Below are positions 1 through 11,095 of a DNA stretch of 50,532 bases, piece after piece. Made by a program: the position numbers and the translations under genes. The notes beneath the pieces are model-generated. The model did not search any database. It was not told the DNA's origin and worked only from the letters and a program-made list of their open reading frames with translations. Position 1 is the stretch's first letter. The number at the start of each line of letters is the position of its first letter. Origin of the DNA: Thiorhodospira sibirica ATCC 700588 (GTDB taxonomy: Bacteria > Pseudomonadota > Gammaproteobacteria > Ectothiorhodospirales > Ectothiorhodospiraceae); NCBI RefSeq assembly GCF_000227725.2, contig NZ_MU255056.1, forward strand, positions 2,675,658 through 2,726,189. Direction: 5' to 3'.

Positions 1-1
1 A

Positions 2-160
2 GGGTTTGTTTTGTTGCCGCGACGCTGGGTTGTTGAGCGGACCTTTGGCTGGCTGAACCACTCACGCCGTCTGAGCAAGGACTACGAGCGCTTGATGTCG
101 AGCAGCGAAGCCTGGATTTATCTCGCAATGATTCGACTGATGGCTAACCGCTTGGTTTGA
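2..160 (+). pseudogene. IS5-family transposase, C-terminal end (cut by window edge)
   Basis: The first bases read as the last 52 codons of a DDE transposase and end in TGA. The stretch [20 protein letters not shown] contains the catalytic glutamate region (W-V-V-E-R-T-F) typical of IS5-type transposases, followed by the usual helical C terminus ending N-R-L-V. The N-terminal part lies outside the window, so I cannot tell whether the full gene is intact. Bases after the stop (about 165-190) probably carry the element's right end, next to the IS4-type remnant that follows. Family assignment is by motif only. Confidence 0.75.
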
Positions 161-161
161 G

Positions 162-1089
162 GCGGTAGTTTCCAAACAGCTTCTGAGACGCTTGCTGAAG
201 AACCCGTTGGTGTGTCCAACCGAGATCATGCAGCCGTTGGCGATGGCCGAACTGGCGCAGGCGGCCCGTCACGATCAGACGGTGTGCCTGAGTCTGGATC
301 AAACCGATTTTGGGGATCGGATGGCGTTGCTGGTGTTGGCCTTGCGCGTGGGCGAGCGGGCGTTGCCGTTGGTTTGGTGGGCCAGGAAAGGCGCGGCGAA
401 CATCGGCTGTGCGGGCCAGAAGCCCTCCTGGAGACGGTGTTGGCTTGGCTGCCGGCTGGGGCGCGGGTGCTGCTGTTGGCGGATCGGTTCTACCCATCGG
501 CGACGTTGTTCGCGTGGTTGCATGCGCACGAATGGGGCTACCGGTTGCGCTTGAAGGGGAATCTGCGGTGGACACCGGCGTGGCGGAGACCACGACCGGG
601 GATTTGGCCAAGGGTGTGCGAGAAGCGTATTTCCGGGTGTGCGCCTGTTCGCCTCTGGGGTGGTGACCCACCTGGGAATTGTGCATGAATCCGGTCATCC
701 GGAGCCGTGGATGATTGCCATGGATGCGGATTCGACCCGTGCGCGCGTACTGGACTATGCCACGCGCTGGGGCATCGAGCCGATGTTCTCCGACTTCAAG
801 GGGCGAGGATTTGGCTTGGGGGATTCGCACCTGCGCCCTGCGGATCGTTTGGAACGCCGGGTGTTGATCATGGCCTTGGCGATGTATGGGTGTGTGCGCA
901 TTGGGCGCGAACAGGCGTGCCACCCTCCGACCCCGCTCGAAAAAAAACCAAGCACAGGACGATCCGAACCACTGGAGCTTCCGCAAGCTCGCCCGCAGCC
1001 TGGTTTCGTGGTTCACACGTGGCTTGCGCTACCTGATGCGCTGTCTGCAAAACGACCTGCCGCTGCCGGCTTTTCGTGCCCGTGAGTAA
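162..1089 (+). pseudogene. IS4-type transposase, multiply frameshifted
   Basis: One transposase can be followed through four reading-frame changes. About 162-410 gives the DDE motif around L-S-L-D-Q-T-D-F-G-D. About 410-570 gives the V-L-L-L-A-D-R-F-Y-P block. About 570-640 is a short linker. About 640-920 gives W-G-I-E-P-M-F-S-D-F-K-G-R-G-F, with the catalytic glutamate, and about 920-1089 the basic C terminus ending F-R-A-R-E. The breaks lie near 410, 570, 640 and 925, so no functional protein can be made. The N terminus appears lost where the preceding IS5 element abuts. This is an old, decaying insertion downstream of cheA, convergent with it. Confidence 0.75.
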
Positions 1090-1160
1090 ATTGATAGGTG
1101 GTAAGGGGCGCAGGGTTGCATGGCGCTCCATAGAATGCGGCATCAAGATGATGCCGTCAC

Positions 1161-1291: not shown

Positions 1292-4036
1292 CTATGTGGT
1301 GGTATTGAGGGCGGTTATGCGGGTGTATTCCTGCATCCCTAAGACCAGGGTGCGCAGGTCTAAGACCAGTAGCACTGAGCCGTTGCCCAGCAGGGCGGTG
1401 CCGGAAAAGCCGTGGAGTTTGCCCAGAAAGCCTTCCATGGGTTTGAGGATGATTTCGATGCCTTCATGAAAGGCATCGACGATGACGCCGACCAGTTCTT
1501 CGCCGATACGAATCACCAAGACCGGGAGTTCTTCGCGTGCCCGGTGGTTTTCATGCAGATCAAGCAGTCGTGCCAGACGCACTAATGGCACGACCTGTTC
1601 GCGTAGCACAAAGGTTTCCTGGTGTTTGATGATATTGATGGCTCGCGGGTTGATTTTGACGGTTTCGGAAACCACGTCAATGGGTACGCCAAAGCGCTGT
1701 TCGGCGACGGTGACGCCCATTACCTGGGTGACGGTCATGGACAGCGGCAGACTGAGTTTGACCTGGGTTCCCTGACCCAGTGTGCTGCTCAGTCGCAGGC
1801 TGCCGCCGGAGGCGTTGACTGCCTGGCGCACCACATCCATGCCCACGCCGCGCCCGGAAAGGTCTGACACAATGGCCGCTGTGGAAAAACCGGGCAGCAA
1901 GACCAGTTGAATGGCCTCTTCATCGGTGATTGCTTCCAGGCGTTCTTCGGATAATAAGCCCTTTTCAAAGGCTTTGAGTTTGACAATCTGGGGGTCAATG
2001 CCCTTGCCATCGTCGGTGATGTCAATGATCACCCGGTCGTTGTCCGGGTAAGCCTTGATGCGGATGGTGCCTTCCTCGGGTTTGCCGGCGGCCTTGCGCT
2101 GCTCGGGCAGTTCGATGCCATGATCAATGCTGTTGCGCAGGATATGGATCAAGGGATCGGCCAGCGACTCGATGATGTTTTTATCGGCCTCGGTTTCCTC
2201 GCCTTCTACCACCAGATTGATGCGTTTGTTGAGCTTGCGGGACAAATCGCGCACCAGGCGCGGAAAACGCTGAAAAATATTAGAAACAGGGAGCATCCGC
2301 ACCTGCATGATGGCGCCTTGCAATTCCTGGCTGATGCGATGCACGATGCTGTATTGCTCCTTGATCTCGCGGGATAATTCGCGCACGCCGAATTGTTGCT
2401 CGGCGCGGTTGGCCAGATAGGGCAGGGCATTTTTGGCCACCACCAGCTCGCCGATGAGATCCATGAGCAGGTCAATGCGCGCCTGATCAATCTTTAATAC
2501 CTTGGGAATCAATTGTTCGCGGCGTGTCCCATCGGCGGCGCTGGCCGCACTGCCGCCTTCGGCTTTGTGGCTGATGGGGCTGGTGCTCTCCTCGGCGGTG
2601 TCTTCTTCCAGGGGGAGATGCATGGCAATATCGCTTAAGATGTCGCCGAGCAGATTCACCAGGGTTTCGCTGCTTTTGTGTTCCAGGGCGCTTTCGCGGC
2701 ATTCTGCGACCTCATCAACCAGATCGACCAGCCCCACATAGCGCAGCGCGTTGCTGACGGTTTCGCTCATTGACAAAATCCGCCCGCGCCAGCATTCCTC
2801 TTCCACCGGAATCACCAAAATGGCCAACTGCGTTTGCAACAGGGCGGCAAAGCTGGCCCATTCTGCGGGGCTGACCTCGCGTGTTTTATGAAGTGTGACG
2901 GTGCCCTGTGTCGAGGATGCCCGCGCTGAGGAATCTGCCGCTGTCTGTTCATCGGCATGCCTTTGCAGGGGTATCCAGTCCGGAGCTTGCTGGGTACGCA
3001 TCGCATCGAGCAAAGCCTGTAGCACGGGGCGCTCGGGCTGGGTCTTGAGCAGGCACTGTAGCCAACGCAGGATGGAGGCGGGCCAGGATTCGGGATTGGC
3101 CAATGCCAGCAGCGTCTGGGCGGCACGTTCCAGGCTGGCCAGATCGTTTTGCGCAAGCCATGTTTGTGCCTCTTCCATAAAGTCTTCATAGACCGGCCCC
3201 TCGTTCGGGGTGCCGGTGGGGATGACATAATCCAGTGCATGCAGCGGGGTGATTTCAACTGCTTCGGCCATGTAACGGAAATGTTCCACCAAGGCGCTGC
3301 GTTCACTATCACAGACCAGGCGCAAATCCAGGCTGCACTGATAGGGGTCGAGTTCTGTCGGGGGCGGTAAGGGGGCGGTCAGGGCAATCGCCCGACCAAC
3401 CACCCCAGGGGCATTGCAGACCACAAACAGGGGGTCTTCACCGCTAAAAAAAGCGTCGCGTATGGGGCGGTAACGTACTCCGAACAGGGGTGACGAGGGT
3501 TCACCGTCGGGGCGGCCTTCGGCATCGACGCCCAGGGTGCGCAGATAAAACCCCACGCGCTGGCTTTCGGGCAGGTCTTTAAGCCACGCCACCGATTTGA
3601 CCGGCGGGGCACTCGCCGTTGCAGAGCTTAGGTCGGCCTCCTCATCGCTTTCTTTGGGCACCAGGGCGCGCAGCCGAACGGCCAAGGCCTGCGAAGGCTC
3701 CTCGGCATCCGCTGGCAGCGCCTCGTCGGTTTCCAGGACATCAATCCACAAAGACACCAGATCGAAGGTGGCCAGCAATAAATCACCGATTTCGGCGCTG
3801 TAGCTCAGGCGATGGTCACGCAAGGCATCCAGCAAATCCTCCGCCGCATGCACCAGCCGCGTCATGGGGAGAAAATCAAACAGGCCCGAGGCCCCTTTGA
3901 TGGTGTGTACGGCGCGAAAGACCTCATCAATCACCGCGCTATCATCGGGGTGACGCTCCAGTTGCAACAAACCACGACCGGTGGTTTCCAGCAGGTCACG
4001 GCTTTCGCTGATAAATTGTGCCAGTATCGGTGTCAT
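1292..4036 (-). CDS. cheA: Chemotaxis histidine kinase CheA
   Basis: This histidine kinase autophosphorylates and passes phosphate to CheY and CheB. It is 914 residues long, larger than the usual 650-750. An N-terminal Hpt domain carries the phosphorylated histidine in AVHTIKGASG (His44). A long, poorly conserved central part (about 130-510) includes a second helical Hpt-like segment without an obvious site histidine. Then come the dimerisation helices (K-I-D-Q-A-R-I-D-L-L-M-D), the ATPase N box (ILRNSIDHGIE), the G boxes (DDGKGID, GRGVGMDVV), and a C-terminal CheW-like domain. I see no clear P2 domain for CheY docking. It is the last gene of the che operon, 11 bases after cheY. Confidence 0.95.
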   Translation of the reverse strand: MTPILAQFISESRDLLETTGRGLLQLERHPDDSAVIDEVFRAVHTIKGASGLFDFLPMTRLVHAAEDLLDALRDHRLSYSAEIGDLLLATFDLVSLWIDVLETDEALPADAEEPSQALAVRLRALVPKESDEEADLSSATASAPPVKSVAWLKDLPESQRVGFYLRTLGVDAEGRPDGEPSSPLFGVRYRPIRDAFFSGEDPLFVVCNAPGVVGRAIALTAPLPPPTELDPYQCSLDLRLVCDSERSALVEHFRYMAEAVEITPLHALDYVIPTGTPNEGPVYEDFMEEAQTWLAQNDLASLERAAQTLLALANPESWPASILRWLQCLLKTQPERPVLQALLDAMRTQQAPDWIPLQRHADEQTAADSSARASSTQGTVTLHKTREVSPAEWASFAALLQTQLAILVIPVEEECWRGRILSMSETVSNALRYVGLVDLVDEVAECRESALEHKSSETLVNLLGDILSDIAMHLPLEEDTAEESTSPISHKAEGGSAASAADGTRREQLIPKVLKIDQARIDLLMDLIGELVVAKNALPYLANRAEQQFGVRELSREIKEQYSIVHRISQELQGAIMQVRMLPVSNIFQRFPRLVRDLSRKLNKRINLVVEGEETEADKNIIESLADPLIHILRNSIDHGIELPEQRKAAGKPEEGTIRIKAYPDNDRVIIDITDDGKGIDPQIVKLKAFEKGLLSEERLEAITDEEAIQLVLLPGFSTAAIVSDLSGRGVGMDVVRQAVNASGGSLRLSSTLGQGTQVKLSLPLSMTVTQVMGVTVAEQRFGVPIDVVSETVKINPRAINIIKHQETFVLREQVVPLVRLARLLDLHENHRAREELPVLVIRIGEELVGVIVDAFHEGIEIILKPMEGFLGKLHGFSGTALLGNGSVLLVLDLRTLVLGMQEYTRITALNTTT

Positions 4037-4047
4037 GGAAATTAGCC

Positions 4048-4416
4048 TTAGCCTTCCCCGGTGAGCATGCGCACCTCAAGGATGAGTTTGTCTGGATTGA
4101 CGGGCTTGACCAGATAATCATTGGCGCCAGCGGCAAAGGCACGGTTGGCGTCTTTTTTTTTGGCCTCGGTGCTGATCATGACGATGGGAATATGCGCCAA
4201 GGTCCGCTCCTGGCGAAATTTGGTCACGGTGGTATAGCCATCCATGACCGGCATATTCACGTCGCACAGCACGAGATCGAAGTGGTGTGAGAGCGCTTTT
4301 TCCAGACCTTCCAGGCCGTTGGTGGCCTCATCGACATAAAAGCCCTCGGCTTCCAGCACTTGACGCACATATAAACGCACGGTGGCGGCATCATCAATCA
4401 CCAGGATTTGTTTCAT
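4048..4416 (-). CDS. cheY: CheY-type response regulator
   Basis: This is a stand-alone receiver domain of about 122 residues. The acidic pocket (DD in LVIDDAATVR), the phosphoacceptor Asp in LCDVNMPVMDG, the switch Thr/Ser region (V-M-I-S-T-E) and the Lys in LVKPV are all present, so it should be phosphorylatable. Lying between cheR and cheA, it is the natural output of CheA and may bind FliM or an alternative target. The start is ambiguous: ATG at 4416 has an AGGGG ribosome binding site with good spacing, while ATG at 4422, two codons upstream, does not. The upstream cheR stop is only 9 bases away. Confidence 0.92.
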   Translation of the reverse strand: MKQILVIDDAATVRLYVRQVLEAEGFYVDEATNGLEGLEKALSHHFDLVLCDVNMPVMDGYTTVTKFRQERTLAHIPIVMISTEAKKKDANRAFAAGANDYLVKPVNPDKLILEVRMLTGEG

Positions 4417-4425
4417 CACCATCCC

Positions 4426-5271
4426 CTACAGCGGTTTTTGGTACACGATGGCCTCTGGAAACTTGCGCACCGTAAACAACGAAGAAATGCGGCTCATCGA
4501 TTCCGAATGCCCCAGACAGATAAACCCGCCGGGATTGAGCGCACCAAAAAACACTTCTGCGGCCTCGCGCCGCGAAATATCATCAAAATAAATCAACAAG
4601 TTGCGGCAAAAGATGATGTCAAAGCCCCGGTATTGTCGAGTGGTGGCGCGATCCGAGAGATTCACCTGGGTAAATTCCACCGAGCCACGCAAATCCTCAA
4701 TGATCTGATGTTCCTGATTCCCGACCGGTTTGAAATATTTGCGCAACAGGTTGGGCGGGAGATTCTGTAAAGAGCGGGTGCCATAGCGCCCTTCTCGTGC
4801 CAGATCAAGGATTTTGGTATCAATATCCGAGGCGACGATCTCGATATCCCATTCATCCACCTGCGGCCAGTATTCCAGCAGCCAGATGGCAATGGAGTAA
4901 GGCTCTTCCCCCGAGGAGCTGGGAATCGACCAGATCTTGATCGGGCGCTTGGCGGCGCGATAGGCGGTAAGCTCGGGCAGCATTGAACGCACCATGCAGC
5001 GAAACTGGTAATCCTCGCGAAAGAAATAAGTCTCGTTGACCGTCATCGCGTTGATCAGGGTTTGCAATTCCCGTCCTGATGCCTCAAAGCGCAGATTCAT
5101 GAAATAGGCATGAAAGCTGTCTACGCCGGTTTTGGCCATGCGCTCTAAAATGCGCTTATCGACGAAATAGCGCTTGCTTTCTTCAAAGTAAATGCCTGTC
5201 TTACGATAAAAATATTCCCGAAACTTAAGAAATTCTTCATTCGTGATCACAGGCTCAGGCTGGCCATGCAT
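4426..5271 (-). CDS. cheR: Chemoreceptor methyltransferase CheR
   Basis: This enzyme transfers methyl groups from S-adenosylmethionine to glutamates of the receptor. It is 281 residues, normal for the family. The N-terminal helical domain contains NAMTVNETYFFRE. The SAM-binding loop reads WSIPSSSGEEPYSIA, where the common form is W-S-A-G-C-S-T-G-E-E-P. D-I-I-F-C-R-N-L-L-I-Y-F follows. The ATG at 5271 is chosen because GGGGGTG sits just upstream. A longer in-frame reading would overlap the neighbouring HEAT gene and lacks conservation. It lies between the HEAT-repeat gene and cheY. Confidence 0.94.
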   Translation of the reverse strand: MHGQPEPVITNEEFLKFREYFYRKTGIYFEESKRYFVDKRILERMAKTGVDSFHAYFMNLRFEASGRELQTLINAMTVNETYFFREDYQFRCMVRSMLPELTAYRAAKRPIKIWSIPSSSGEEPYSIAIWLLEYWPQVDEWDIEIVASDIDTKILDLAREGRYGTRSLQNLPPNLLRKYFKPVGNQEHQIIEDLRGSVEFTQVNLSDRATTRQYRGFDIIFCRNLLIYFDDISRREAAEVFFGALNPGGFICLGHSESMSRISSLFTVRKFPEAIVYQKPL

Positions 5272-5329: not shown

Positions 5330-5959
5330 TCAGTTTGGATTGGCGCCACGGATCCGTCGGATCGCGATATCGGCGGCGAAGCGTAAAAATGGGTCATTGG
5401 CAAACCGTCCCGGCAAGGCGTCAATGCTTGCAATCATTTCTGGTGAGCCCACCTCGGCCAATAAATCCACGGCGGTGGCGCACACGTTGATGTGAGTGTC
5501 TTCCTCAATGACCCCCAGCAGCCACTCCGGGGTCATCGGGTGACATAAGGATTCGAGCACATTCACGGTAAAAATACGCACATCGGAATCCGGGTCATGC
5601 AACATATCCTGCATATATGGGGCCAAGGCATCGGGCATCTGGCGCAGCGCCTCAATGACTCCATTGCGCAAGGCCGCATCTTCGCTTTTTAACAGCGGAA
5701 TCAGCCCCTTGACGGCGGCATTGTTATTGATGCGGATGAGGCTGGTAAACAGGGCATCGCGCACCGCCATGTTTTGCTCTTCTTCCAGACAGCGGCACAG
5801 GATTTCGGCGGCCTCGCTGTGTTCGCTCAGATCCAGCGCGGCCCAGCGGCGAATATCAGGTTTATCGGAACGCAATTGTTCCAGCAAGCCCGACAGATCA
5901 CGCGCACTGTGACGGTGTTCCTCCGGGGGCGCTGAAACCGTTTTTTTGATCAAAGCCAT
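5330..5959 (-). CDS. HEAT-repeat protein of the chemosensory operon
   Basis: This 209-residue, mostly helical protein has about four to five HEAT/armadillo-like repeats. They can be seen as recurring segments such as DIRRWAALDLSEH, MAVRDALFTSLIRIN, ALRNGVIEALRQM and DVRIFTVNVLESL. No catalytic motif, signal peptide or membrane segment is visible. It sits between cheB and cheR with a GAGG ribosome binding site. HEAT proteins occur in some chemosensory clusters and are thought to be adaptors, which is the most I can infer. It may hold CheR or CheB on the array. Confidence 0.8.
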   Translation of the reverse strand: MALIKKTVSAPPEEHRHSARDLSGLLEQLRSDKPDIRRWAALDLSEHSEAAEILCRCLEEEQNMAVRDALFTSLIRINNNAAVKGLIPLLKSEDAALRNGVIEALRQMPDALAPYMQDMLHDPDSDVRIFTVNVLESLCHPMTPEWLLGVIEEDTHINVCATAVDLLAEVGSPEMIASIDALPGRFANDPFLRFAADIAIRRIRGANPN

Positions 5960-6058: not shown

Positions 6059-7132
6059 CTAGGCCGAGGCCCAGCGATTCAGATGGCGCGCCACCTCATC
6101 ACTGCGGCAGATAACATCCGCCCCGCCACGGGCAATCAATTCCGCCGGCATCCCAAAGACCACCGCCGAATCCTCCGATTCAGCGATACAGCGCCCGCCG
6201 CGTTTGCGCACCTCGGTCATGGCATCGGCCCCATCATAGCCCATGCCGGTGAGCATCACGCCGATTAACTGTTCAGCCGGATAATGCTCCAGGGCACTGC
6301 GCACCATCAGCTCGACCGACGGATGCCACAGATGCTGCGAAGATTCCGGACGCGGCAACAGCATCGGCCCGCTAGAGCGGCGGGTAAACACCAGATCCCC
6401 GCCCCCACGGGCGACGTAGATATAGCCCGGCTGTACTGGCGTAAGCGCCGTGACCTCCACCACCTCCAGCGCACATAAATCATTCATCCGCTGGGCAAAG
6501 GTGTGGGTGAAATTCGGGGGCATGTGCTGGCAGACCACCACCGGGAAGGGATAATCCGCCCCCAGCAGCGGTAAAATCTCTTCTAAAGTACGCGGCCCGC
6601 CGGTGGAAACACCGATCAACACCACATGCATCTCCAGCTTGCCCGAGGTTTTTGCCGTGGTGCTGCGGGTGGTGCGGGTTGAGGCCGCCTTGGTATTGGC
6701 CTCGCGAATCCGTTGCGTGAGTCCTTTCACGCTGCGCAACTTGGCCCGGGCCGCTGCTCGCACCTTGGCGACAATCTCCTGACCGACCTTGTCGATGTTA
6801 AGCGAAATGGTGCCGCCGGGCTTGGCGACATAATCAATCGCCCCCATATTCAGGGCCTCAAAGGTCGCCAAGGCACCCTTTTCTGTCAGCGAAGACACCA
6901 TGATCACTGGCGTGGGCCGCTCCACCATGATATGTGACAGGCAGGTCAGCCCGTCCATCTCCGGCATATTGATATCCAGGGTGATCACATCCGGCTCAAA
7001 GGATTTAAGCTCCTCCAGGGCCTCCTTACCATTACGGCAGGTGGCGATGCGAAAATTACCCTCTGCCTCAAACAGCGTCACCAGATGACGGCGCATCAAG
7101 GCCGAGTCTTCGACAATCAACAGCTTGATCAC
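6059..7132 (-). CDS. cheB: Chemoreceptor methylesterase CheB
   Basis: This enzyme removes methyl groups from the receptor when phosphorylated by CheA. It is 357 residues. The N-terminal receiver domain has its phosphoacceptor at Asp53 in ITLDINMPEMDG and its Lys in YVAKPGG. A variable Thr/Lys/Arg-rich linker (about 135-167) follows. The C-terminal esterase domain shows the Ser176 (IGVSTGGPRTL), His203 (CQHMPPNF) and Asp300 (TGMGYDGADAM) triad. The start is GTG at 7132, overlapping the cheW stop as GTGA, so the two are translationally coupled. Confidence 0.96.
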   Translation of the reverse strand: MIKLLIVEDSALMRRHLVTLFEAEGNFRIATCRNGKEALEELKSFEPDVITLDINMPEMDGLTCLSHIMVERPTPVIMVSSLTEKGALATFEALNMGAIDYVAKPGGTISLNIDKVGQEIVAKVRAAARAKLRSVKGLTQRIREANTKAASTRTTRSTTAKTSGKLEMHVVLIGVSTGGPRTLEEILPLLGADYPFPVVVCQHMPPNFTHTFAQRMNDLCALEVVEVTALTPVQPGYIYVARGGGDLVFTRRSSGPMLLPRPESSQHLWHPSVELMVRSALEHYPAEQLIGVMLTGMGYDGADAMTEVRKRGGRCIAESEDSAVVFGMPAELIARGGADVICRSDEVARHLNRWASA

Positions 7133-8964
7133 AGCGCATCCTCGGCAGATTGAGCCACGGCATCAGCGGGTTCAGCCGGTGCCGGGGCTGCCGGTTTGGC
7201 CGGAGGTGCTGGCGGTGGGGCCGCCTCTGCGGGTTTAACTGGCACTGCAGGTTTAGCCGAGGCGGCTGCCGGCGCTGCGGGTTTGGCCGGAGGTGCTGGC
7301 GGTGGTGCCGCCTCTGCAGGTTTAACCGGCGCTGCCGGTGTCGGGCTGGCGGGTTTTTCTACCGACGCGCGCGCTGCACCGTTGGCACCGTTACCATTGC
7401 CATTAAAGCCTTGGCCGACCGCAACCTTGGATAAGACCTCAATCTCGTGGGCATCCATCATCTGGTCCACATCCAGCAGCAGGATCATGCGATGCTGCGC
7501 TTCCAGATTGGCGACGCGCTGAATGATTTCGGCCTGTTCGCTGGAAAGGCGCGGGGCGGGGCCTATAACGGCCTTGGGCACCTTCAGCACCTCCGAGACA
7601 GAATCGACGATAAAGCCGGTGCGCGTCCCGTTGATCAAAAACACCATGATGCGCTGGCGGTCATTGCGGGTCATATCCGGCAGACCGAAACGCCGCCGCT
7701 GATCCACCACCGGCAACACCGTGCCGCGCAGATTAATGACCCCTTCGACAAAGACCGGCGCCTTGGGAACCCGCGTCAAGACCTCGGGCACGCGCACAAT
7801 CTCCTGTACAGAAGCAATCGGCACGCCGAATTCCTCATGCGCCAGCCGAAACACCACCATCTGCTCATCATCATCCATCACATAACTGCTCTCATCATCC
7901 AGGGTGCCCTCGTGGGCGGTGTCTTCGGTGTCTTTCATGGATTCCACAGTCTTGATGGCCTCATGAATGCTCTTGTGATTAAACATGCGCTCGGCGGATA
8001 AAATGGACACCAGGCGCTTGCCGCCATCAATGCGGCAGATCGATTCGATCTCCTGAATATCCTGATTGCGCGCCAGCAGCCCCGGCATCTCATCGACAAT
8101 CGAGCGTTGCACCCGCAACACCTCGTTGACCGTATCCATCACAATCCCCACCGACACGCCTTCATCCAGCGAAATCACCACAATGCGATTATGCTCAGAC
8201 AAGGCCTCCATCGGCAGATTAAACATCAGCCGCAGACTGACCAACGGCAACAGGCGATTGCGCAGCGTCATGATACCCAGCACATGCGAGCGGGAATTGG
8301 GTACCTGCATGATATGCTCAGGCACCTGCACAATCTCTTGCACCCGCTCAATGGCAATGGCGTATTCCTGCTCGGCCACGACAAAACTCACCAACTGCAA
8401 CTCATCGTTATTGGCGCGGCCAAGCATATCGTGATGCTGCGCACTCCCGCCCTGCATCAAGGCCAGGCTGGAAGCATCGCGCATATTTGCGGAAAGCTCG
8501 GCAAATTCACGCTCAATCAGGGCGGAAAAATCCAGAATCATGATCATCTCATGACCGCCGGCGTTATTGATCACCCCTTCGAGAAAATCGCTGTTGACGG
8601 TGGACTGAATGCTGGTCACATCTTCAATGTGTTGAGGTTCCACCGAAATCACGCTGGCCACCCGGTCAACCACAAAGCCGACCGGGATACCATGATCAAT
8701 CACCAGCACACGGGTACTGTCATCATCTTCACGCACCGAAAAATTAAAGATATGGCGCAGGCTGATGATCGGTAGCACCTGCCCGCGCAGGTTGGAAAGC
8801 CCTTTTAAACTGGGCGGTGACAAGGGAACGGCCATCACCTCCGGGGCACGAATGATCTCACGCACCGGGGCCATGGGCACGGCAAAGACCTCCTTATCCA
8901 CCAAAAAGGTGACAAACTGGCGGTTTTCGCCTTGTTCCGATAAATCCTCTGTGCTGGCTTGCAT
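7129..8964 (-). CDS. cheW: Triple-domain CheW coupling protein with Ala/Pro-rich tail
   Basis: CheW couples receptors to CheA. Here a 611-residue protein strings three CheW domains together (about 15-155, 190-330 and 370-500). Each has the R-G-x-x-L-P or equivalent core: NLRGQVLPIISL, TLRNRLLPLVSL, NLRGTVLPVVD. The middle domain has R-N-R in place of R-G-x. A Gly/Asn linker leads to a tail of about 80 residues rich in Ala, Pro and Lys, built from a 29-residue repeat (87 bases, 7193 and 7280). Single CheW proteins have about 160 residues, so this is an unusual scaffold. It is coupled to cheB and follows the MCP gene; GGGAGAAG precedes the ATG. Confidence 0.92.
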   Translation of the reverse strand: MQASTEDLSEQGENRQFVTFLVDKEVFAVPMAPVREIIRAPEVMAVPLSPPSLKGLSNLRGQVLPIISLRHIFNFSVREDDDSTRVLVIDHGIPVGFVVDRVASVISVEPQHIEDVTSIQSTVNSDFLEGVINNAGGHEMIMILDFSALIEREFAELSANMRDASSLALMQGGSAQHHDMLGRANNDELQLVSFVVAEQEYAIAIERVQEIVQVPEHIMQVPNSRSHVLGIMTLRNRLLPLVSLRLMFNLPMEALSEHNRIVVISLDEGVSVGIVMDTVNEVLRVQRSIVDEMPGLLARNQDIQEIESICRIDGGKRLVSILSAERMFNHKSIHEAIKTVESMKDTEDTAHEGTLDDESSYVMDDDEQMVVFRLAHEEFGVPIASVQEIVRVPEVLTRVPKAPVFVEGVINLRGTVLPVVDQRRRFGLPDMTRNDRQRIMVFLINGTRTGFIVDSVSEVLKVPKAVIGPAPRLSSEQAEIIQRVANLEAQHRMILLLDVDQMMDAHEIEVLSKVAVGQGFNGNGNGANGAARASVEKPASPTPAAPVKPAEAAPPPAPPAKPAAPAAASAKPAVPVKPAEAAPPPAPPAKPAAPAPAEPADAVAQSAEDAL

Positions 8965-8999: not shown

Positions 9000-10925
9000 T
9001 CAGGCATTGCTTTGCAGTTCATCGGCCAGCGAGGCAATCTCCTCAATGGCCGCTGCCAGTTCTTCCGCCCCCTGTGCCTGCTGCTTGCTGGCGGCTGCGG
9101 CCTGGCCCGATGCCTGCTCGGCCTCAGCGGCTGCCGCCGCAATCTGATCCGCGCCTTTTTTGGCCTCAATCAACTGCTCGACGATGCTTGCCGAACCGGC
9201 AGAAATGGTGCGATTACCCTTCAATACCTCGGTCATCTCGACTTCCATGCTTCCCAGGTTTTTGGTGATGGCAGCGGTTTTTTCCACCTCGGAGGTGGTA
9301 TTGGCGGTAATATCATCCAGATCATGGCGCACCATCGCAATCTGATCCTGCACCGATTTCACCAGATCCTTGATACGATCCGCATTTTCGGCGGAATCAT
9401 GCGCCAGATTGCGAATATCGGTGCTGACCACCGCAAAGCCTTTGCCAAACTCACCGGCACGGGCGGCCTCAATGGCCCCGTTGACCGCCAGCATATTGGT
9501 CTGAATCGACACTGTGGTAATCGCATCGACAATCTTGTCAATGCGCCGCGACACCATCTCCAGGGCATTGATCTGATCACGGCTTCTGCGCGCCTCATCC
9601 AGCGCCTTGGTAATCCCGTCGACCAGATTGTCCACGGACTCCTTGTTTTCATTCATAACGGCTGCCATGGTTTCGCATTTTTTCACCGCATCAGTGGAAC
9701 GCTGGTCGGAGAGCTTGGCCCCCTTTTCAATCTGCGCTACTGCCGCACTGGATTCTTGCGAGGCGGCTGCCTGCTGCTGTGCGCCTTTGCGGATCTGATC
9801 AATGGCCGCCATAATCTGCGCCGATGAACGATTGATTTCCTGCACCGCTGAAGATAATTGCTCGGCGGCGGAGGCCACCTCTTCGGCGCTTTTGCTAATG
9901 TCAGTACTGTTTTTGAGATCCTCGGCCAGCTCGGAGAGATTTTGCGCGGCCTGTTCTGACTCCATCAGGGCCTGGGTTTGCTCGCCAACGGTTTTTACGG
10001 CCTCTTCACAGGCGGAGGACTGCTCTTCAGCGGCAGCGGCAATGTCTTCAGCGCCTTTTTGCGCATCTTTGCCCGCCCGTTCAGATTCCTGCGAGGTGCG
10101 CAAAATATCCTGGGCACCTTTCACAATGGAGTCCAGATCGGAGCGCATCTGGTTGAGTTGGGCGATGATCGTCGAACTTTTTTCGACCTCTTTGGAGACG
10201 GTATCCGCCGAACGGTTGATGCCCTCGGCGATGACCTTGACCTCCTTTTGAATCTGCGTCACCAGATCCTGAATATCCTTGGCGCTTTTTTCCGAGGTTT
10301 CGGCCAAGGTACGCACCTCATCGGCTACCACCGCAAAGCCCTTGCCATGCTGCCCGGCGCGGGCCGCCTCAATCGCCGCATTCAGCGCCAACAGGTTAGT
10401 CTGATCGGCAATCCGCGCCACCGCCTTGACAATATCACCGATATTGGCCGCCTGACGCTCCAGCTCCTCAACCCGCTTGACCGAACCGCTTTGCTGTTCA
10501 GCCGCCGCCCGCACCGCGACGACGGTCTTCTCAATCTCTGAGGCCACCGACTGCACCAGAGTCTGCAACGACTCGGAGCGGTGCATAGAATTGCGCGCTG
10601 CCTCTGAGGTTTCTAAAATATTGCGCGCAATCAGTGTCATGGCGCGCTGCGATTCCTGTGCCGCGCCGGAGGCCTGCTCGGCACCGCTGGCGATTTGATC
10701 CATCGCCCGTTTGAGTTCTTCAGCGGCAGAACTGGCCTCATTGATACCGCTGGAAAGCTGCACACTGGCTGAGGCAATGCGCTCCGCCACCTGCTGCTGT
10801 TTGGCCAGTGTGCGCGCCTTGCGGCGCTGTTCGTCCGCCATACGTTGCGACTGGCGCTGGGCGGCATCCTCAGATGCCTCATGCCCGCTGGCCAATCGAC
10901 CCTGATTTTTCTTTACTAAAGTCAT
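9000..10925 (-). CDS. Soluble chemoreceptor with two tandem MCP signalling domains
   Basis: This 641-residue protein has no membrane segment, signal peptide or recognisable sensor domain. Nearly all of it is coiled coil. Two signalling-hairpin tips are present: [17 protein letters not shown] near residue 175 and [17 protein letters not shown] near residue 475. They are exactly 300 residues apart. The flanking segments also align at a 300-residue offset ([10 protein letters not shown] with [10 protein letters not shown]), so the gene is an internal duplication. No C-terminal CheR-tethering pentapeptide is seen. The ATG at 10925 is preceded by AAGGGGG. It is the first gene of the che operon. 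Input may come through a partner protein or cytoplasmic state. Confidence 0.93.
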
Positions 10926-11095
10926 AACGGCCCCCTTGTGACCTGATTCAAGCACGTTTCGCCAAACATCTCAAAAGCCTTAATCCCGACACCCACGCTC
11001 GCCGTATAACTCCCTGCACAGCGGCGCTACACACCCTGCAAAGCAAGGCCCTGCCACCGCAGCTACCCAGGAAACGAGGAAAGAAAAGATCGCCA

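Follow-up and report, generated by a model that had tools for sequence, protein, structure and literature searches.

The F9 class of chemosensory systems has been described in Vibrio cholerae, where its signature pair consists of a 'concatenated triple CheW', VC1402, and DosM, VC1403, a receptor with two signalling domains (PMC7534058). For cluster I of this species a double-layered array was observed by electron cryotomography, in which CheA (VC1397) and CheW (VC1402) form two baseplates sandwiching the receptors and DosM is a rod with one tip per end, reaching both layers (PMC7534058). This array lies entirely in the cytoplasm, has a height of 35 nm and can form without CheA (PMC7534058). 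The names DosM and CheW3 were given in PMC9321776; there, 64 of 2781 species had a complete F9 cluster, scattered in distribution, and horizontal transfer was inferred to be frequent. The literature searched gave neither a structure nor biochemical data for any CheW3. The per-domain signatures, the DosM tip residues and the recurrent HEAT and STAS-like genes described below were not found in the open literature; some of these details may stand in Briegel et al. 2016, which both F9 papers (PMC7534058, PMC9321776) cite.

We analysed a 50,532-nucleotide stretch of the Thiorhodospira sibirica ATCC 700588 genome (NZ_MU255056.1), hereafter the window, and found in it a seven-gene operon in the order dosM-cheW3-cheB-HEAT-cheR-cheY-cheA, with all genes on the (-) strand. 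The ORF list and Pfam agree on a protein of 611 aa, CheW3 (7129..8964, ATG start), in which three CheW domains follow one another, lying beside the double-tip cytoplasmic receptor DosM (9000..10925; identified by Pfam, alignment with relatives and AlphaFold) and overlapping cheB (6059..7132; ORF list and Pfam) by 4 nt. Downstream are a gene for a HEAT-repeat protein (5330..5959; Pfam and the loci of relatives), cheR (4426..5271, with a probable start at 5271 by homology and an ORF open to 5433), cheY (4048..4422) and cheA (1292..4036, with Hpt, dimerisation, ATPase and CheW/P5 domains), the last three assigned from the ORF list and Pfam. The first-pass annotation, made from the letters and their open reading frames, had described this neighbourhood as a triple-CheW protein next to a double-hairpin receptor and cheB, both receptor and adaptor being multivalent and encoded in one operon with a HEAT protein; Pfam bears this out with two MCPsignal stretches, three CheW stretches and a HEAT match. 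The window thus carries the full F9 gene set as named in PMC9321776, and rearrangement is confined to the 3' end of the operon.

The only Pfam domain that CheW3 matched was CheW, in three separate stretches (314.7 bits, E 6e-95). The three domains, joined by linkers of about 30 residues, span aa 12-156 (8497..8931), aa 186-333 (7966..8409) and aa 365-512 (7429..7872), all on the (-) strand, and scored 112.0, 98.9 and 129.5 bits, respectively, in a genome-wide CheW scan; by Pfam and alignment, domain 3 is the closest of the three to an ordinary CheW. Across the whole genome, 18 CheW domains were found. Alignment and conservation counts identified an N-L-R-G core in domain 1, which domain 3 shares, versus L234-R235-N236-R237 (8254..8265, (-)) in domain 2, so that R-N-R stands there in place of R62-G63-V64 of E. 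coli CheW, as the first-pass annotation had read it. The protein ends in a Pro/Ala-rich tail of about 100 residues (7132..7428, (-)) that was not found in 12 aligned relatives; positions 7180-7339 within it carry a tandem repeat of 87 bp. A scan of genome contigs with the single CheW3 protein gave a spurious match to this tail only, and viral contigs searched with CheW3 gave no match. An AlphaFold model of CheW3 with six close relatives had a pLDDT of 31.5 and was not used.

DosM contains two MCPsignal stretches and no sensory domain by Pfam. Of two candidate starts, the GTG at 10955 and the ATG at 10925, the second is the probable one, because relatives begin there. AlphaFold predicts long helices (mean pLDDT 90) with a break at 339-341 separating two signalling halves; the relative direction of the two hairpins is not readable from the model summary alone. 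The tips begin at residues 184 and 484. Tip 1 (10299..10406, (-), ending ...ADEVRTLAE) and tip 2 (9399..9506, (-), ending ...STDIRNLAH) are set apart in an alignment of 26 DosM proteins by fixed or nearly fixed residues, which in Tsr numbering are D373, L377, L380, A382, D401, E402 and V403 in tip 1, versus I373 (or V/L), M377, V380, G382, T/S/A401, D402 and I403 in tip 2. Among the latter, M377, V380, G382, D402 and I403 are present in all 26.

The CheA of the window shares 47-50% identity with the CheAs of two other F9 loci (L089 and L090), compared with about 35-38% with two other CheAs of its own genome, and by these identities it is nearest to CheAs from loci of the F9 kind. It gave no Pfam match to P2, in agreement with the earlier description of a CheA without clear P2, but this is a weak point since P2 is recovered by HMMER in fewer than 20% of CheAs and far more often by profile-profile searches (PMC10782961). 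A second chemosensory cluster, encoding a 711-aa CheA, a 555-aa MCP and a 190-aa CheW, lies about 5 kb outside the window (L059:1254-6147, G000:C4).

Two further genes recur in F9 loci. The HEAT gene stands between cheB and cheR in nearly all of them, except in loci of the Rhizobium, Novosphingobium and Sphingobium type, and no mention of the HEAT protein was found in the F9 literature searched. In nearly all F9 loci tested, cheA is directly followed by a gene for a STAS-like protein of about 78-87 aa, which has weak STAS_2 matches below the Pfam cut-off (E 2e-4 to 0.08; one of five proteins gave no match). In the window this gene is absent 3' of cheA, where insertion-sequence-like repeated DNA is found instead (1..1105, no strand assigned). 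A homologue of 82 aa is encoded about 1.63 Mb away (G000:C4:1043610-1043858; L109:5611-5859), near a transposase-like ORF whose end matches positions 1-187 of the window at 98.9%, and the C-terminus of the window CheA is about 18 aa longer than usual. An insertion-sequence-associated rearrangement at the cheA end would explain both the displaced STAS-like gene and the extended CheA. With its operon rearranged at the 3' end, the F9 system of this genome may be impaired.

Relatives belonging to three proteobacterial classes have the order dosM-cheW3-cheB-HEAT-cheR-cheY-cheA too, as do most other genomes with enough DNA flanking cheW3; the order is complete on plasmids of Methylosinus, Eleftheria, Methylobacterium, Sphaerotilus and Azospirillum, and Rhizobium, Novosphingobium and Sphingobium carry the version without the HEAT gene. 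F9 loci were present in 5 of 46 other genomes of the order, and CheW3 in 9 of 398 genomes of a phylum-wide sample. The first-pass annotation had proposed to test whether triple-CheW proteins accompany tandem receptors. Among 369 genomes sampled evenly from the class, CheW3 occurred in 11, DosM in 9 and both in 9 (hypergeometric P 1.7e-16), and DosM was never found without CheW3. In one of the two genomes with CheW3 only (L094), the contig stops within the locus, and the last part of DosM can still be seen. The other (L091, 8263-9702) has an F9 operon in which CheW3 lacks its first ~50 residues and no DosM lies upstream, which represents either a decayed set or an assembly error. The window CheW3 aligns over its full length with CheW3 proteins at many DosM loci at 50-64% identity, and the window DosM is likewise homologous over its full length to DosM at other such loci. 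Both proteins are closer to those of L089, a genome of another family (64% for CheW3, 69% for DosM), than to relatives in their own family (about 57% and about 63%), as expected after horizontal transfer.

Taken together, the window protein is almost certainly a CheW3, the adaptor of a chemosensory system of class F9, an assignment tied to VC1402 and VC1403 through published descriptions. The earlier suggestion of a distinct array type was right in that these features mark a type of their own; this type has, however, already been published as F9 (PMC7534058, PMC9321776), and the locus is a further example of a described array class rather than a new one.

The three CheW domains were compared position by position over 28 CheW3 proteins, using E. 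coli CheW numbering. In each domain, at least 25 of 28 proteins retain R62 and E38. Position 63 is glycine in domains 1 and 3 of all 28 proteins and in domain 2 of only 8; the core glycine is thus lost from domain 2 in 20 proteins, 11 of which have asparagine, and position 64 of this domain is arginine in 22. The changed core pointed out by the first-pass annotation in one protein is therefore a conserved, position-specific feature. A structural role for this domain, as that annotation suggested, is a possibility to be set against its retention of R62 and E38 in 27 of 28 proteins. Position 107, where simulations of the E. coli complex pair D107 of CheW with R404 of the receptor (PMC6954272), is glutamate in domain 2 (21/28) and domain 3 (24/28) and mostly serine or arginine in domain 1. 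R140, which has been linked to interface 2 (PMC6954272), occurs in domain 2 (25/28) and domain 3 (26/28) and in none of the 28 first domains, where the alignment is gappy. The F9 CheW domains do not keep R117 and F122 themselves, two residues at which changes disrupt interface 2 in E. coli (PMC5181776). In a tree of 76 domains, built from few columns and with open forks, domains 1 and 3 each cluster by position and domain 2 nearly so. Because the domains group by position, the triplication is old, and the parts of CheW3 have since diverged in a position-specific manner. Judged by their residues, the domains are not equivalent to one another: domain 3 is ordinary, domain 1 lacks the R140/D107-type residues by interface 2, and domain 2 lacks the core glycine but retains R62 and E38. 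From the conservation of these differing signatures, each domain probably makes a contact of its own with the ring or the receptor.

Loss of the core glycine, mostly to asparagine, and the frequent R64 would also suit a middle domain that is simply a spacer, setting the distance between domains 1 and 3 and binding neither receptor nor CheA-P5. We consider this unlikely, since domain 2 retains R62 (27/28), E38 (27/28), G57 (28/28), G99 (28/28) and R140, which a mere spacer should not hold, and the glycine itself persists in the 8 proteins counted above. Alternatively, the middle domain might replace CheA-P5 in the ring, giving CheA-free rings a P5-like member, as P5 domains can also miss the core glycine (LREQ in the window CheA, LRDR and IRDK in others); but in the tree the P5 domains, including the other P5s of the genome, cluster apart (98/94), with domain 2 placed among the CheW domains, and this very improbable idea was dropped.

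Triple-CheW proteins also exist without DosM. In Ruegeria sp. TM1040, a cheR-cheD-cheW3 cluster with a single-tip receptor containing four PAS domains lies on the megaplasmid (L105:3864-9491), and in Marinitoga okinawensis the protein is encoded on the 28-kb plasmid pMO1 (L053:8992-10299) alongside single-tip receptors and genes for GGDEF and HD phosphodiesterase proteins. Both resemble the window protein in having three CheW domains and differ from it in adjoining single-tip receptors rather than DosM. They share 23-26% identity with the window CheW3, their domains show no one-to-one match to F9 domains 1, 2 and 3 in a tree of low resolution, and an independent origin is therefore likely. Single-tip receptors as partners, named in the first-pass annotation as evidence against its reading, are thus seen with these unrelated proteins and not in the F9 lineage. 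Although such proteins show that CheW can be triplicated elsewhere, it is scarcely credible that the window protein is an unrelated or recent triplication, given its 50-64% full-length identity to CheW3 at DosM loci, the same kind of operon and domains orthologous by position.

For the F9 reading, by analogy with the V. cholerae array seen by cryotomography and by homology, two baseplates of CheA and CheW3 would sandwich the receptor layer, with DosM spanning both. The three CheW domains joined in one chain would, as the likeliest arrangement, take up adjacent CheW places in the six-membered rings of a baseplate, a placement in which our confidence is about evenly balanced. One CheW3 could then supply all three CheW places of a ring that contains CheA, or three of the six in a ring of CheW alone, and the adaptor positions would thereby be pre-linked, so that the array might form without CheA. 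A more tentative and rather doubtful extension is that F9 arrays are asymmetric, with non-equivalent DosM tips, specialised CheW3 domains and the HEAT and STAS-like proteins as regular parts; if so, the two baseplates would not mirror each other but be unlike in composition or activity.

The interest of the locus, an F9 set outside Vibrio in a class scattered across many bacteria, lies in its position-specific residues and extra genes and not in the existence of CheW3. Positions 63/64 of CheW3 domain 2, positions 107/140 of domain 1, and positions 373, 377, 380, 382 and 401-403 of the DosM tips are candidate targets for mutation. These residues and the two extra genes, drawn from 26-28 relatives, make the building of a double array by a joined adaptor and a two-ended receptor testable.

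Compared with cluster I of V. cholerae, the Thiorhodospira locus likewise clusters a soluble receptor with two signalling domains, a triple CheW, cheA, cheY, cheR and cheB, and the V. cholerae locus numbers of cheA, cheW and dosM leave space for an equal seven-gene block. It differs in that its CheW3 ends in the Pro/Ala tail absent from relatives and the 3' end of its operon is broken by rearrangement. The partial F9 sets of Nitratiruptor and Nautilia share the signature pair of DosM and CheW3 but are without F9 cheA and cheY (PMC9321776), both of which the Thiorhodospira locus has. E. coli CheW (PDB 2ho9/6s1k) aligns over its whole length to domain 3 (E 7e-22) and has the same N-L-R-G core; in contrast to the joined adaptor of Thiorhodospira, it is a single domain, with one protein per ring position.
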